This document shows positions 14,609 to 19,918 of a DNA stretch of 22,427 nucleotides, piece by piece. The stretch is from a virus: IMG/VR virus record IMGVR_UViG_3300035691_000166, positions 1 to 22,427 of that record; one strand, 5' to 3'. The position numbers were made by a program, and so were the translations under genes. The notes under the pieces were generated by a model. It made no database searches and had not been told where the DNA came from. It saw nothing but the letters and a program-made list of their open reading frames with translations. Within the stretch, counting starts at the first letter, position 1. Each line of letters opens with the position of its first letter.

Positions 14609-14663
14609 ACCGGGCCCCGTCCCACCGCGCGTGCGAAGCGCGACAAGAGCGAGGCCCCGTGCC

Positions 14664-16883
14664 ATGTCCGATGCGGAAGCTAGCGTTCCCGTTTACTTCT
14701 CGCAACTCCAATCGATCCCGCGCTGGTGCAAGTGGCGGTTGATGCCCACAGCCAGCGGCAGGTTCACGAAGGTGCCCGATCAGAGCACCGCGCGGATCGA
14801 CGAATGCCGGCCCTGGACGCGGCCGAAACCGCGGTTGCAGGAAGGCGAGTTCGAGGTGAAGCTGATGCACGGCAGCTCGCTCGGAGACGAGCCGCGCACG
14901 TCCGAGCGTGGTGTTGGTCTGGTGCTCACCGGCGAGGTGCTGCTGCCTGACGGCCGGCGCCTGCTCGCGATCGACCTGGACGCGTGCATCACCGAGCACG
15001 GCGAGATCACCGCGGAGGCCTCGCAGTGGTTGGACCAGCTGGACTCCGCCACCGAGGTCTCGCCCAGCGGCTACGGACTGCGGATCTACGTCGCGGTGAT
15101 GGAGCAGCTGCCGCAGAACCACCTGCGCACGAAGGTCTGTCGAAAGGAAGCTGCGCCGGCCGGCGTCGACAAGACCCCGGAGTGCCAGCTGTTCGGCACC
15201 GGGCCTGCCGGCTACGTGACGGTCACCGGCAACCACCTGCAGGGCACGCCGCAGGAGATCCGCACGGTGCAGGTAGCAGACCTCGAGCGGCTGTTCGGTC
15301 TGCACCCGGCCGCCAGCGCGACCAACGCGGTGGTGCCGACCGGCTGGGGCGCGGAGCCCGCGGCCGGCGAGCTCGAGGCCGCGGTGCTGGACTGGAAGCA
15401 CGGCCGCCGGCTCTGCGCTGCCGAGTGGGAAGGCCTCGACTACGACAGCGCCTCGGAAGCCTACTTCGCGCTCGTCACCGTGGCGCTGCGCGCCGCGCGC
15501 GGGCATGGCGAGGCGGTGGTCGACTTCCTGCTGGGCACCGCCTGGGGCGCCGGCCTGGTCCCCGAGTCGCGCGACCCAGGGAAATACTCACGCGAGTCCT
15601 GGGTGCGCCGCGAGGTCGCGCGCGCCGCGGCCAAGAGCACCGCCGCCGACGATCCAGCTGCTGTGTTCGAACCGGTAGCGGATCCACCGGCGAAGCCTGC
15701 GGACGGGCTCCACAGCGGCAACGGGCACACGGCGCCGCAGGAAAACGCCGGCGGGCCTCCTCGACCCGCCGGCCCCCAACTGGATAGCTCAGCACCGCCG
15801 TCTGAGGGGGCATCGGCACCGAGCCGCTCGCGCCTGCAGCCTACAGATCCGCCGCCGCGCCGCAACCCCTTGCAGATCGTGACCGTGGCGGAGCTGTTCG
15901 CCCGCGAGCGACCGGGCGACCTGTGGTTCCGGATGATGCCCAGGGGCAGCCTGTCGATCTGGTTCGGCATCCCGAAGTGCGGCAAGTCCTACCTAGCCCT
16001 CGCGCTAGGCATGGCGGTCGCCGAGGGTAAGCCGTTCCTGGGTCGCCCCACGGTGAAGGGCCGGGTGCTCTACGTCGCCGGCGAGGGCGTGCAGGGGGTG
16101 GCCGACAAGGTCGCTGCGGGCATCTCGCCCGAGCGGGCCAAGGACGCAGCAGACCCATTTCACAACCAGTTCTTCGTGCTCCCCAGTATGCCCCGGCTCA
16201 CGGACCCGAAGACCCTGGCGGCCGTGCTGGCGGCGGTCGAGAGCCTTGGCGGCGTCGACCTGGTGATCGTCGACACCGTGGCCCGGGCCATCGGGGTCTG
16301 CGGGCTCGACGAGAACAGTGCGGAGGACACCGGGGCCTTCGTGGCGGCTCTCGACGTGCTGCGGATGCACACCGGCGCGGCGGCGCTCGGCGTGCACCAC
16401 GAGAACAAGCAGGGCGGCGATCGCGGCTCGAGCGCCCTGCGCGGCGCGGCGGACGTCTTCGTGCGCGTCGAGCGGGTGCGACGGCGGTGCTCGTCACTGA
16501 CCGTGCAGGACATGCGGGACGGGGAGCCGCCGGAGCCGATCGAGGTCACGTTCGAGTCCAAGGTGATCGGATACGACCAGGACGCCACCGGCACGAAGCA
16601 GCCGATCGAGCGGTGGCGGGTCAAGGAGCAGCCCGACGCGATCGAGAACGTGTTCGAGCTTGGTTCGACCGAGCGGGCTGTGCTCGCGGTGCTCCGCGAC
16701 TTCGGGATCGGGATGACCCTAGCTGCGATCGCGCGCGAGTCCGGGATTCCGAGGGAGACAGTGAGGCGAACCTTACCCAAACTCCTGGTGCTCGGGCACA
16801 TCGAAGAATCGATCCAGAAGGACCACAAGATCTACCGAATCGCAATGTCCCCGGATTCCACGCAAGATGATGCGCAAGCCTAG
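14664..16883 (+). CDS. Primase-polymerase / RepA-like AAA helicase fusion
   Basis: A 739-aa protein starting at ATG 14664 with GAGG about 9 nt upstream. Residues 1-215 match the primase-polymerase-like domain found in phage and plasmid primases: WCKWRLMP, then LLAIDLDAC with D104 and D106, then TEVSPSGYGLRIYV at 130-143. An Arg stands where many archaeo-eukaryotic primases have His. A Pro-rich, probably disordered linker (about 330-400) leads to a RecA/RepA-type ATPase: Walker A GIPKCGKS (435-442), LYVAGEG, Walker B LVIVDT (D537), and HHENKQGGDRGSSALRGAAD (578-597). The C-terminus (670-725) is a winged-helix-like unit (LAAIARESGIPRETVRRTLP). It probably opens the origin, unwinds and primes DNA. 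The repeat array directly downstream is its likely target. Confidence 0.88.
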   Translation: MSDAEASVPVYFSQLQSIPRWCKWRLMPTASGRFTKVPDQSTARIDECRPWTRPKPRLQEGEFEVKLMHGSSLGDEPRTSERGVGLVLTGEVLLPDGRRLLAIDLDACITEHGEITAEASQWLDQLDSATEVSPSGYGLRIYVAVMEQLPQNHLRTKVCRKEAAPAGVDKTPECQLFGTGPAGYVTVTGNHLQGTPQEIRTVQVADLERLFGLHPAASATNAVVPTGWGAEPAAGELEAAVLDWKHGRRLCAAEWEGLDYDSASEAYFALVTVALRAARGHGEAVVDFLLGTAWGAGLVPESRDPGKYSRESWVRREVARAAAKSTAADDPAAVFEPVADPPAKPADGLHSGNGHTAPQENAGGPPRPAGPQLDSSAPPSEGASAPSRSRLQPTDPPPRRNPLQIVTVAELFARERPGDLWFRMMPRGSLSIWFGIPKCGKSYLALALGMAVAEGKPFLGRPTVKGRVLYVAGEGVQGVADKVAAGISPERAKDAADPFHNQFFVLPSMPRLTDPKTLAAVLAAVESLGGVDLVIVDTVARAIGVCGLDENSAEDTGAFVAALDVLRMHTGAAALGVHHENKQGGDRGSSALRGAADVFVRVERVRRRCSSLTVQDMRDGEPPEPIEVTFESKVIGYDQDATGTKQPIERWRVKEQPDAIENVFELGSTERAVLAVLRDFGIGMTLAAIARESGIPRETVRRTLPKLLVLGHIEESIQKDHKIYRIAMSPDSTQDDAQA
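15747..15811 (+). repeat. Strong inverted repeats in the linker of the primase-helicase gene
   Basis: GCCGGCGGG (15747-15755) pairs with CCCGCCGGC (15765-15773), a 9-bp perfect stem with a 9-nt loop. Immediately after, GCCCC (15772-15776) pairs with GGGGC (15807-15811) around CTCAG/CTGAG (15788-15792 with 15802-15806). Both fall in the region coding for the low-complexity linker between the two domains. Confidence 0.55.
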
Positions 16884-16893
16884 TTTATACGAC

Positions 16894-16916
16894 CTGCCCA
16901 CCGTGGGCAGCTTTTT
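16894..16916 (+). terminator. Intrinsic terminator after the primase-helicase gene
   Basis: CTGCCCA/TGGGCAG forms a 7-bp stem with a CCG loop, followed one base later by TTTTT. It lies 10 nt after the primase-helicase stop codon. The stem also carries two copies of the TGGGCA/TGCCCA repeat, so the element may double as a protein-binding site. Confidence 0.65.
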
Positions 16917-17120
16917 ACCCACCGTGGGCAACAAAATGGGCAACAGTTACGACGACGTGGGCGGACGTGGGCAGCGAGTGGGCAACTCTCGGAAAACAAC
17001 TAACTCTAGGTGATAACATGCGTTACGTTCGCGCTGCCCAAAGCTGCCCAAAGCTGCCCAAAGCCATAAGCAAAAGCTGCCCACAAGAAGTCCCCCCCTT
17101 AGAGGGGGACTTCGTGGGCA
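16895..17120. repeat. TGGGCA/TGCCCA iteron-like array with AT-rich core (candidate replication origin)
   Basis: Eleven exact copies of the 6-mer and one variant lie in 226 bp. TGGGCA starts at 16904, 16925, 16937, 16968, 16979 and 17115, with TGGGCG at 16958. TGCCCA starts at 16895, 17035, 17045, 17055 and 17078. Left of the AT-rich stretch (16985-17030) nearly all copies point one way; to the right nearly all point the other way. Start-to-start spacings of 21, 12, 21, 10 and 11, and 10, 10 and 23, are close to multiples of one helical turn. Three of the right-hand copies form a 10-bp tandem repeat (GCTGCCCAAA). Iterons beside an AT-rich segment and next to the helicase-primase gene are typical of replication origins, as in the lambda O gene. 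Confidence 0.65.
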
Positions 17121-17557
17121 ATGCTCGGGCGGAACCGACTCGAAAACACCCCTCGGTGACCGGTGCCCGACCCGCCGGAAAAACGCCCGGTGTCCGATCC
17201 ACCGGGAAGGCCCGGCCGACAGCCCGGTCGCTCGAGCACTGCCGGCAGCTCGGGTGGACCGCGGACGTCGTGGAGCGGTGGCTGGCAGGGGCTGGGGTTC
17301 GCAAGGATCTCTTTGGCTGCATCGATGCGGTCGCGCTCGACACCCAGCCGGGGTTGCTCGGGATCCAGGCTTGTGCGGCATCCTCGGCCTCTACACGGGT
17401 CGCCAAGGCTCTGGCCGAGCCGAGGCTCGGAACCTGGCTACGTGCGGGGAACCGCTTCGAGGTCTGGTCGTGGGGCAAGCGCGGGCCGCGCGGCAAGCGC
17501 AAGCTCTGGGTGCTCACGCGGCGGGCGGTGACATTGGCTGAGTGGTTGCTGGCCTGA
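17018..17557 (+). CDS. PD-(D/E)XK nuclease-like protein
   Basis: A 179-aa protein starting at ATG 17018, which has AGGTGAT upstream at good spacing. The first 60 residues are low complexity and partly encoded by the repeat array (AQSCPKLPKAISKSCP). Later GTG starts are possible, for example near 17114. The folded part (residues 70-178) reads SLEHCRQLGWTADVVERW, then VRKDLFGCIDAVAL with D97 and D103, then LLGIQACA with Q117, then WLRAGNRFEVWSWGKRG. The order E/D, DxxxxxD, xIQ and a Trp-rich end fits a group of small phage PD-(D/E)XK-fold proteins that I recall as VRR-NUC or resolvase-like. The usual catalytic Lys after IQ is not obvious, so activity is uncertain. It lies between the origin-like array and a small unknown gene. 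Confidence 0.7.
   Translation: MRYVRAAQSCPKLPKAISKSCPQEVPPLEGDFVGNARAEPTRKHPSVTGARPAGKTPGVRSTGKARPTARSLEHCRQLGWTADVVERWLAGAGVRKDLFGCIDAVALDTQPGLLGIQACAASSASTRVAKALAEPRLGTWLRAGNRFEVWSWGKRGPRGKRKLWVLTRRAVTLAEWLLA
17078..17120. repeat. Long inverted repeat (17 bp) built on the iteron motif
   Basis: GAAGTCCCCC (17087-17096) pairs perfectly with GGGGGACTTC (17104-17113) around a 7-nt loop. An outer TGCCCAC (17078-17084) pairs with GTGGGCA (17114-17120), leaving only a 2-nt bulge. No T-run follows, so it is not a simple terminator. It closes the right side of the repeat array. Confidence 0.75.
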
Positions 17558-17810: not shown

Positions 17811-17873
17811 GTGTGCAAATCTTGCCCACTTGACTCTGCCGCCCCGCCTGTGTGCAGTTCTTGCTCATGTTGA
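17811..17873 (+). repeat. Imperfect direct repeat spanning the start of the large virion-type gene
   Basis: The unit GTGTGCAAATCTTGCCCAC-TTGA (17811-17833) recurs as GTGTGCAGTTCTTGCTCATG-TTGA (17850-17873), offset 39 bp. Eighteen or more positions agree. The second copy contains the ATG of the next gene, whose usual ribosome site is absent. Confidence 0.5.
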
Positions 17874-19918
17874 AGATCGGCTGCACGCTGGCGAACTGTT
17901 CCCCGAGACGCCGCACCGGATGGACCGAGCAGGTCGCGTTCCCGCGACCAGCTGGTGGCGCCGGCGTGCCGGACCTGTTGCAGTTCGTCGCCGACGACGG
18001 ACGCGAGTTCACAGGTGTTCGCGGCGAGGACGTGGGCGAGCACTCAGTGACGTTCCGCTTCCGATGCACGCTCGAAGCGAACGAGGTCGTCAGCGGTGTC
18101 GTGATCGACGCGCCCGACTCGGTGAAGCTCGAGCCGTTCGTGCTGCACCCGTGGGTCAGCGACGACCTGCAATCGATCGTGCCGATCGCTGGCCTGCTGA
18201 AACCCGACGGCACAGTCGCCGAGCTGCTGCAGCCGCTCGAACTCTCGCTCGTGAGCTTCTCGCCGGTGCACCAGCGGTGGTATGCGCGCATGGCGAGCAG
18301 CGAGCTTGGCCTCGTGCAGGAGCTCTGGGCTGACCTCTGTCACATGGACCCGGTCGTGAAACTCACCGGTGCGGTGACGTGGAGCGATCGACGCGACACC
18401 GCGCGGCTGAAGACGTTCTTCGGGATCCTCGGTTTGCACAGCGGCGAGCAGCTCGCGCTCGACTTCACCGATCGCCACGGTTGGATTCGCTCTGAGCACC
18501 AGGGTCAGAAGCTCGTGCTGTTCGGCAGCAACCAGACGTTCATCGACGGCGCGTCGATTCCGTTCAGCGGCAGTGTGCTCTGCTTCCGCGGCCCGAACAA
18601 CGTTGGCCCATGGACACCGACGCCGCAGGACTGGGAGGACGTGAACAACCTCGAGGCCGCGAAGGGCGGCCCGATGCTCGGCATCGCGCACAACTGGCAC
18701 GGCAGCTTCCTCGGTGCGAAGGGCACGCCGGTGCGAGGCAGCTACCCGGTCGACCAGTTCGAGTGGGAACGCTTCCAGCAGATGCTGCAGCAGCGCGCCA
18801 CGCTGCTCACGCCGCGGCCGATCGGCTGCGCTCCGGCTCCAGGACAGACCGGTGACCAGGAAGACTTCGGAGCGAGTAAGGGCACACGCGCTGTCACGTT
18901 CCTCGATCCGCGCTGGATCTACGAGGCTCGCTACAGCGTGCAGGCCGAGTGCTTCCGCGGCTATCGCCACTTCGAGAAGGACGGCACTGCGCTCGACCCG
19001 AGCAAGCATCCGAACTGGGAGACGTGGGGCGGCAAGACCGGGTTCTGGTTCCAGGGCGTCAGCGACGACGCGACGCTCGGCAAGCAGGGCGGCTACTGGC
19101 CCGAGCCTCCGGGCGGCTGGACCGGCTACGACGACGAGCACAGGTCGCAGAACAACCTCGCGGCCTACCTCGCGCTCACGGGGGATCCGTTGCTGATCAC
19201 GCAGTGGTGCCACCTCACGACGACCGATGTGATGTCGGTCACGCACAAGCGACCGACGACGGCTGCGCAGCGAGCCGAAGGTCGCCTCATCGAGACCTGG
19301 GCGAACATGGCTCTCGTGCTGCCGGGCGAGGCTCGGCGGCGCGCGCTTGAGCTTGTCGGCCGACGCGTGCTGCTCGCTGCGCAGAAGCTGCAGGCGATCA
19401 CCGGCCCGATGGTCCTGATGGAGTCGCACGGGCCCGACGGTCGCAAGCCCCTCTACAACGCCGCCGGCCAGCTGGTCGAGACCGCGACGATCTGGGAGCT
19501 CGGGCTGCACCTCGTCGGCCTCGCATGCGCAGTGCGCAGTGGCACCTGCCTCTATCTCGCGCTGGCGCAGGATGTGCTCGTGCAGCTGTCGCGCACGATG
19601 GCCCGCTACGGCTGCTTCCTCGGCGCCAACGGCTGGAAGATCGTGCAGGACGTCGAGTGGCGCGGTGGCGGTGACGTCGATGTCACGCTGGCGCGCGAGA
19701 CCGAGCCCGGCAAGTGGTCGCTCGCGATCTTCGACGGCAATGACGGCGACGTTCGCAGCTGGACGCGCAACGGCATGCTCGTCGCTCGAGCCACGCTGCG
19801 CGACGTCGACCCGTCGCTCGCTGCGAAGCTGAACACCTGCCTCGTGGTGATGGGAGTCAACCTGCAGAGCCCGAAGTCCCAGCGCGATGCTGAGTGGTGG
19901 GCTGTGCTCAATCCGTAG
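17867..19918 (+). CDS. Large putative virion/tail-associated protein, possible alpha/alpha-toroid enzyme fold
   Basis: About 683 aa from ATG 17867 (MLKIGCTLANCSP); GTG at 17852 is an alternative. No ribosome site is clear. The first third is beta-rich (VSGVVIDAPDSVKLEPFVLH), typical of a structural domain. The remainder contains repeated helix pairs: WTGYDDEHRSQNNLAAYLAL followed by TGDPLL, then AEGRLIETWANMALVLPGEA and AAQKLQAITG. DEH-rich helix pairs with TGDP turns recall the alpha/alpha-toroid of polysaccharide lyases and six-hairpin glycosidases. This is a fold-level impression; catalytic residues cannot be assigned. Its position before a spike-base-like gene and the small-terminase-like gene suggests a virion component that may act on the cell surface. 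A non-enzymatic structural protein is the alternative. Confidence 0.7.
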   Translation: MLKIGCTLANCSPRRRTGWTEQVAFPRPAGGAGVPDLLQFVADDGREFTGVRGEDVGEHSVTFRFRCTLEANEVVSGVVIDAPDSVKLEPFVLHPWVSDDLQSIVPIAGLLKPDGTVAELLQPLELSLVSFSPVHQRWYARMASSELGLVQELWADLCHMDPVVKLTGAVTWSDRRDTARLKTFFGILGLHSGEQLALDFTDRHGWIRSEHQGQKLVLFGSNQTFIDGASIPFSGSVLCFRGPNNVGPWTPTPQDWEDVNNLEAAKGGPMLGIAHNWHGSFLGAKGTPVRGSYPVDQFEWERFQQMLQQRATLLTPRPIGCAPAPGQTGDQEDFGASKGTRAVTFLDPRWIYEARYSVQAECFRGYRHFEKDGTALDPSKHPNWETWGGKTGFWFQGVSDDATLGKQGGYWPEPPGGWTGYDDEHRSQNNLAAYLALTGDPLLITQWCHLTTTDVMSVTHKRPTTAAQRAEGRLIETWANMALVLPGEARRRALELVGRRVLLAAQKLQAITGPMVLMESHGPDGRKPLYNAAGQLVETATIWELGLHLVGLACAVRSGTCLYLALAQDVLVQLSRTMARYGCFLGANGWKIVQDVEWRGGGDVDVTLARETEPGKWSLAIFDGNDGDVRSWTRNGMLVARATLRDVDPSLAAKLNTCLVVMGVNLQSPKSQRDAEWWAVLNP

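Follow-up and report, generated by a model that had tools for sequence, protein, structure and literature searches.

A mirrored hexamer array behind a phage primase-helicase gene as a probable replication origin read by the helicase's winged helix

The window analysed here, a 22,427-base IMG/VR virus record that is possibly a fragment, carries a dense array of TGGGCA hexamers immediately behind a primase-helicase gene. Comparison with related loci makes it very probable that this array is a phage replication origin whose iterons are read by the winged helix of the phage's own primase-helicase. More broadly, we lean toward the view that there is a widespread class of RecA-fold (RepA/SF4-type) replicative helicases that recognise their own origins by means of an exchangeable winged helix fused to them. 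Phages would swap the winged helix-array cassette under diversifying selection, be it from incompatibility, satellites or defence; the outcome would be a large number of origin specificities independent of one another, and a helix-to-hexamer code that can be read. The window features are the following:

14631..16883, + strand: primase-helicase gene, 750 aa, with a primase-like N-terminus, an AAA_25 core and a C-terminal winged helix
16665..16841, + strand: predicted winged helix, the putative hexamer reader (helix-helix-helix-strand-strand, AlphaFold2 model)
about 16752-16790: predicted recognition helix of the winged helix, RETVRRTLPKLLV (AlphaFold2 model)
16895..16984: left array half, with TGCCCA at 16895, TGGGCA at 16904, 16925, 16937, 16968 and 16979, and the variants TACCCA at 16916 and TGGGCG at 16958
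16985..17034: AT-rich spacer, a candidate unwinding region by base composition
17035..17083: right array half, with TGCCCA at 17035, 17045, 17055 and 17078, the first three spaced 10 bp apart
17087..17113: C-run/G-run hairpin GAAGTCCCCCCCTTAGAGGGGGACTTC, between the inverted hexamers TGCCCA 17078 and TGGGCA 17115
17115..17120, + strand: distal TGGGCA closing the hairpin
17018..17557, + strand: next gene, encoding a hypothetical protein, with its start at 17018, 17114 or 17156

The array comprises 11 exact TGGGCA/TGCCCA sites within 226 bp (16895-17120) and opens 11 bp 3' of the helicase stop codon (stop at 16883, first site at 16895). A Markov-1 simulation of the window, run 150 times, placed at most 7 copies of any one hexamer within 226 bp. 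Across the whole 22.4 kb the word occurs 18 times, against 10.1 expected, and 11 of the 18 fall in the array; outside the array, the window's densest hexamer cluster reaches 6 copies. The sites are ordered - + + + + +, followed by an AT-rich gap and then - - - - +, with start-to-start spacings of 9, 21, 12, 31, 11, 56, 10, 10, 23 and 37 bp. Within the gap, positions 16985-17030 are 59% AT, compared with 33% window-wide, and exceed 99.98% of the window's 46-bp stretches. The three TGCCCA copies at 10-bp spacing lie in different reading frames, which fits selection on the DNA rather than a repeated peptide. The first-pass annotation had described eleven copies and one variant, facing opposite ways on the two sides of an AT-rich run and following the primase-helicase gene. 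The count, the orientations, the AT-rich run and the position all stand; the one-mismatch sites number two instead of one.

The helicase core is RSF1010-RepA-like, with a RecA fold. The AAA_25 Pfam family matches residues 417-595 (1.4e-35), the PHROGs matches are to primase/helicase families, the profile match to RSF1010 RepA (1g8y) scores 1.2e-18, and the first-ranked Foldseek hit is RepA (1nlf). The winged helix spans residues 679-737 (AlphaFold2 model, mean pLDDT 88); its helices (282-294, 300-307 and 311-323 of the model) and strands (327-332 and 335-340) are mostly modelled at pLDDT >90.

Related loci were gathered in several ways. A direct DNA search with the exact triple repeat gave no match, while a scan for spaced TGGGCAAC repeats recovered six virus contigs in which a closely similar array accompanies a related helicase. 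Several further matches of that scan had periods in multiples of three within ORFs; these look like coding repeats and were set aside. The primase protein alone found no relatives, so an alignment query was needed. This query, with relatives selected by conserved helicase patterns, returned 137 helicase loci, some on virus contigs and others in bacterial genomes spread over many phyla. Only 7 of 117 relatives have at least 4 copies of TGGGCA behind the helicase, and the idea that this word is universal was rejected. When the DNA behind the helicase gene was instead searched for dense hexamers of any sequence, many other words came up, among them CGGACA, GGGACA, GCAACA, GGAGCA and GAACAC. Density was counted in 430-bp windows at the 3' end of the helicase gene, with the top hexamer picked per locus and the same free choice given to background windows. 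By this measure 73% of the 117 loci have at least 7 copies of one hexamer, compared with 0.7% of 1804 background windows, and 42% have at least 9, compared with 0%. About a quarter of the relatives are without a comparable array.

These arrays begin at a median of 1 nt past the stop codon and reach +160. Both site orientations are present in 62/63, and same-orientation neighbours lie 8-12 bp apart in 185 of 292 cases, with a mode of 10. The largest gap is AT-enriched in 46/63, modestly; the AT-rich core, clear in the window, is weak as a family rule. Related loci share the position of the array behind the helicase and mostly not TGGGCA itself, close relatives using other words. At L012:3906-4029, L053:10420-10570 and L055:8428-8490 we also observed TGGGCA/TTGCCCA arrays behind more distant AAA_25 helicases. 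The candidate recognition helices PKTLRTC (L012) and EKTFRRA (L053) resemble RETVRRT of the window, which hints at a shared code.

The word changes together with the winged helix. In fourteen close relatives the helicase cores are about 95% identical (91-99% pairwise), yet the C-terminal winged helices are of four unrelated types. Each type comes with a word of its own (TGGGCA, GCAACA, GGAGCA or GAACAC), on near-identical site layouts and with conserved flanks. The exchange block is delimited by the loci L095 and L100, whose DNA diverges from about 250 bp before the stop codon to 200 bp after it and is near-identical on either side; the two differ in both winged helix and word. Among locus pairs with core identity of at least 70%, mean word sharing was 0.86 where the C-termini are at least 50% identical (20 pairs) and 0.06-0.17 where they are less than 50% identical (33 pairs). 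Partial Mantel tests on 63 non-redundant loci gave r = 0.34 (p = 0.0005) for word and C-terminus controlling for core, and r = 0.11 (p = 0.009) for word and core controlling for C-terminus; related loci are not independent, and deduplication and Mantel permutation lessen the effect of kinship but do not remove it. Judged by sequence, the winged helix and the hexamer are exchanged together in these relatives, in lock-and-key fashion.

A [RK][RKQT][AT][FYW]x[RQK] signature in the recognition helix, chosen after inspection, accompanies GGAC-type words in 18/25 loci compared with 2/38. Within one clade an RKTFSQA helix occurs with CGGGAT and a KRTFNRA/V helix with CGGGACA, a pairing that would fit glutamine reading A and arginine reading G. 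For the window itself the case that the word is specific to its cognate helicase is indirect, coming from co-variation in relatives: its winged helix shares only 22% identity with the one in the other TGGGCA group, so that the word-helix pairing in the window's own phage rests on analogy. Separately, the loci L137 and L170, with 88% identity between their cores and 64% between their C-termini but different top words (GGAACA and GGACAC), form a natural near-point-mutant pair for the recognition helix.

The array could alternatively be a set of operators through which the helicase winged helix, or another repressor, controls downstream transcription. Winged helices are common in regulators, the sites precede the next gene and may extend into its start, and there is a hairpin within the array. 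However, the word tracks the helicase C-terminus and not the downstream DNA: L095 and L100 are near-identical from about +200, and yet their words and winged helices differ. For an operator, seven to fourteen mirrored sites with 10-bp phasing would also be a large number, and homologues of the window's next gene occur without the array. We therefore regard an operator role as improbable.

The product of the next gene has no Pfam or PHROG match and appears PD-(D/E)XK/resolvase-like by eye only. The ATG at 17018 is preceded by a good ribosome site; there are in-frame GTG starts at 17114 and 17156, and database matches to the protein start only at its residues 34-69. The start is thus uncertain and the array may be wholly intergenic. 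The array had been described as running into this gene, a point that hangs on the start codon, as does the coding status of the array's right half. A tie between the array and the downstream gene was considered and rejected, its distant homologues (L006-L009) having no TGGGCA array upstream. A 688-aa ORF at 17852-19918, between the array and the small-terminase gene, is likewise without a Pfam or PHROG match.

The hairpin has counterparts in the relatives. A CCTNWAGG-type hairpin loop was found in 29 of 69 related array regions and in 70 of 1734 background windows, about a tenfold enrichment. The loops are CTTTAG/CTATAG-like, the median position is +91, inverted hexamers often flank the structure, and a T-run is mostly missing; the hairpin may serve as a terminator or for priming. 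This conserved C-run/G-run hairpin, together with strong folding (z -5.0), might suggest that the words act in RNA, as an attenuator, a terminator or sites for an RNA-binding protein. Mirrored sites alone force strong folding, however, and the mostly absent T-run, the presence of both orientations in 62 of the 63 arrays, the match of same-orientation spacing to the DNA helical turn and the co-variation of the word with a DNA-binding fold all argue against it, making a role in RNA very unlikely.

A packaging, partition or integrase-arm site has the least to recommend it and we give it hardly any credence: some unrelated TGGGCA clusters do adjoin integrase or terminase genes in other contigs, but the word of the arrays considered here, which lie behind AAA_25 helicases, changes with the C-terminal part of the helicase. 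In the window, 3.4 kb separate the array from the small-terminase gene, and none of the proteins scanned was recognised as an integrase. The unrelated clusters are of two kinds. At L039:830-935 and L052:7078-7140, TGGGCAAC direct repeats adjoin phage integrase genes and could be arm sites for the integrase, in which case the TGGGCA word would be put to an unrelated use. At L026:9969-10365 and L014:12862-13127, about 8-13 mirrored TGGGCA sites are intergenic and near terminase genes, with no AAA_25 gene recognised nearby.

A helicase-linked origin is the best reading of the array, given the conserved position behind the helicase and the co-variation of the word with the C-terminal winged helix. 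We infer binding, melting, ring loading and initiation along the following lines. Several helicase subunits would bind same-facing hexamers separated by roughly one helical turn, the two sets facing opposite ways, and would thereby concentrate and orient a RepA-type ring on the spacer. The duplex would open there, and the fused primase would begin synthesis, possibly at the hairpin. If the ring is brought to the spacer in this way, through hexamer binding by the winged helix, the array would be the origin, and winged helix and array would constitute a single exchangeable specificity cassette. GC skew, put forward earlier as an origin marker, did not single out the array: there is no clear change at the site (means 0.047 and 0.063; downstream above upstream in 25/36), and in the phage CRP-811 the skew follows the gene strand.

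The array had been likened to lambda ori, where iterons and an AT-rich part lie beside a replication gene. In lambda the iterons are inside the O gene and O is not a helicase, whereas the window array lies after the helicase stop and no O homologue was recognised in the window. The alpha protein of satellite P4 (ori/crr) is a primase-helicase too, and its C-terminal winged helix binds short iterons; the likeness lies in this fused domain, while helicase class and word differ from those of the window. SaPI Rep also belongs to another helicase class than the RSF1010-RepA type; unlike the SaPI Rep/P4-alpha class, the window helicase has an AAA_25, RSF1010-RepA-like core. The closer precedent is nevertheless the SaPI/PICI rep-ori. 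In these islands and in SCCmec Cch2 the initiator is a helicase, sometimes primase-fused, with the origin directly 3' of its gene, and the SaPI/PICI rep-ori has two iteron sets around a spacer, recognised by the helicase C-terminal domain (PMC6092414, PMC7581432). Cch2 is a 3'-to-5' helicase (PMC7581432), and the helicase-origin arrangement has been described as unique to PICIs (PMC6092414). The window array likewise lies directly 3' of its helicase gene with two site sets around a spacer, its origin role being predicted. Since the helicase class differs, the window module is a look-alike and not a member. It also differs in context: a PICI is an int, alpA/rpr island, whereas the window encodes its own DNA polymerase and small terminase and looks like a phage, and the AAA_25 helicase-array module occurs mainly in phages and phage-plasmids.

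With RSF1010 the window shares a RepA-family hexameric helicase (1g8y, 1nlf). In RSF1010 a separate protein, RepC, melts the origin at which RepA is loaded (PMC8965321), whereas the window helicase has a predicted DNA-reading domain fused on, and no RepC-type family match was found among the window's main proteins scanned. Because RSF1010 RepA needs a separate origin-opening protein, the fused version would be a different initiation route for this helicase family. Winged-helix exchange among close phages is described for Gordonia phage replication initiators, with the swapped domain N-terminal; unlike for the AAA_25 arrays, the passage concerned mentions no accompanying change of origin word (PMC10684548). 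An earlier description of the AAA_25 helicase-array pairing was not found in the open-access literature searched. The pairing offers a rule for candidate origins in unmapped phages, prophages and phage-plasmids, namely 0-200 bp behind the AAA_25 helicase, and the natural chimeras lend themselves to testing how winged helices recognise DNA and could supply compatible plasmid origins.

The module extends to isolated phages, plasmid records and islands. In the Roseobacter phages CRP-811 and CRP-823 the helicase is followed by 11 CTACAA sites, and this array is the densest hexamer cluster of the complete CRP-811 genome. Comparable arrays were not found in the AAA_25 phages Hashim76 (Mycobacterium), Evaa (Gordonia), Madraxi (Rhodococcus), 1244 (Vibrio) and wksl3 (Salmonella). 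Plasmid records carry TGCGGC (Klebsiella), CGCAACA (M. currus), TGCGGAAG (Caenibius) and CGGACA, the last behind the AAA_25 gene of the 21-kb pMRAD08, which has no known plasmid Rep family among the 25 Pfam families listed of the 33 matched; FF17 pD has a weaker array, of GGACAC, behind its helicase. These array-bearing plasmid records look like phage-plasmids or islands. In E. coli HZ13 and SCU-125 the helicase-array module, with GTGCGGCA, is found in elements with integrase, capsid and terminase genes. The loci from SCU-125, HZ13 and plasmid p1RM9154-C1 (L205, L206 and L209) combine an AlpA/HTH regulator, an Icd-like gene, a RepA-family helicase with its array, and capsid genes; in our reading these islands resemble capsid-forming satellites that use a helicase-array replicon.
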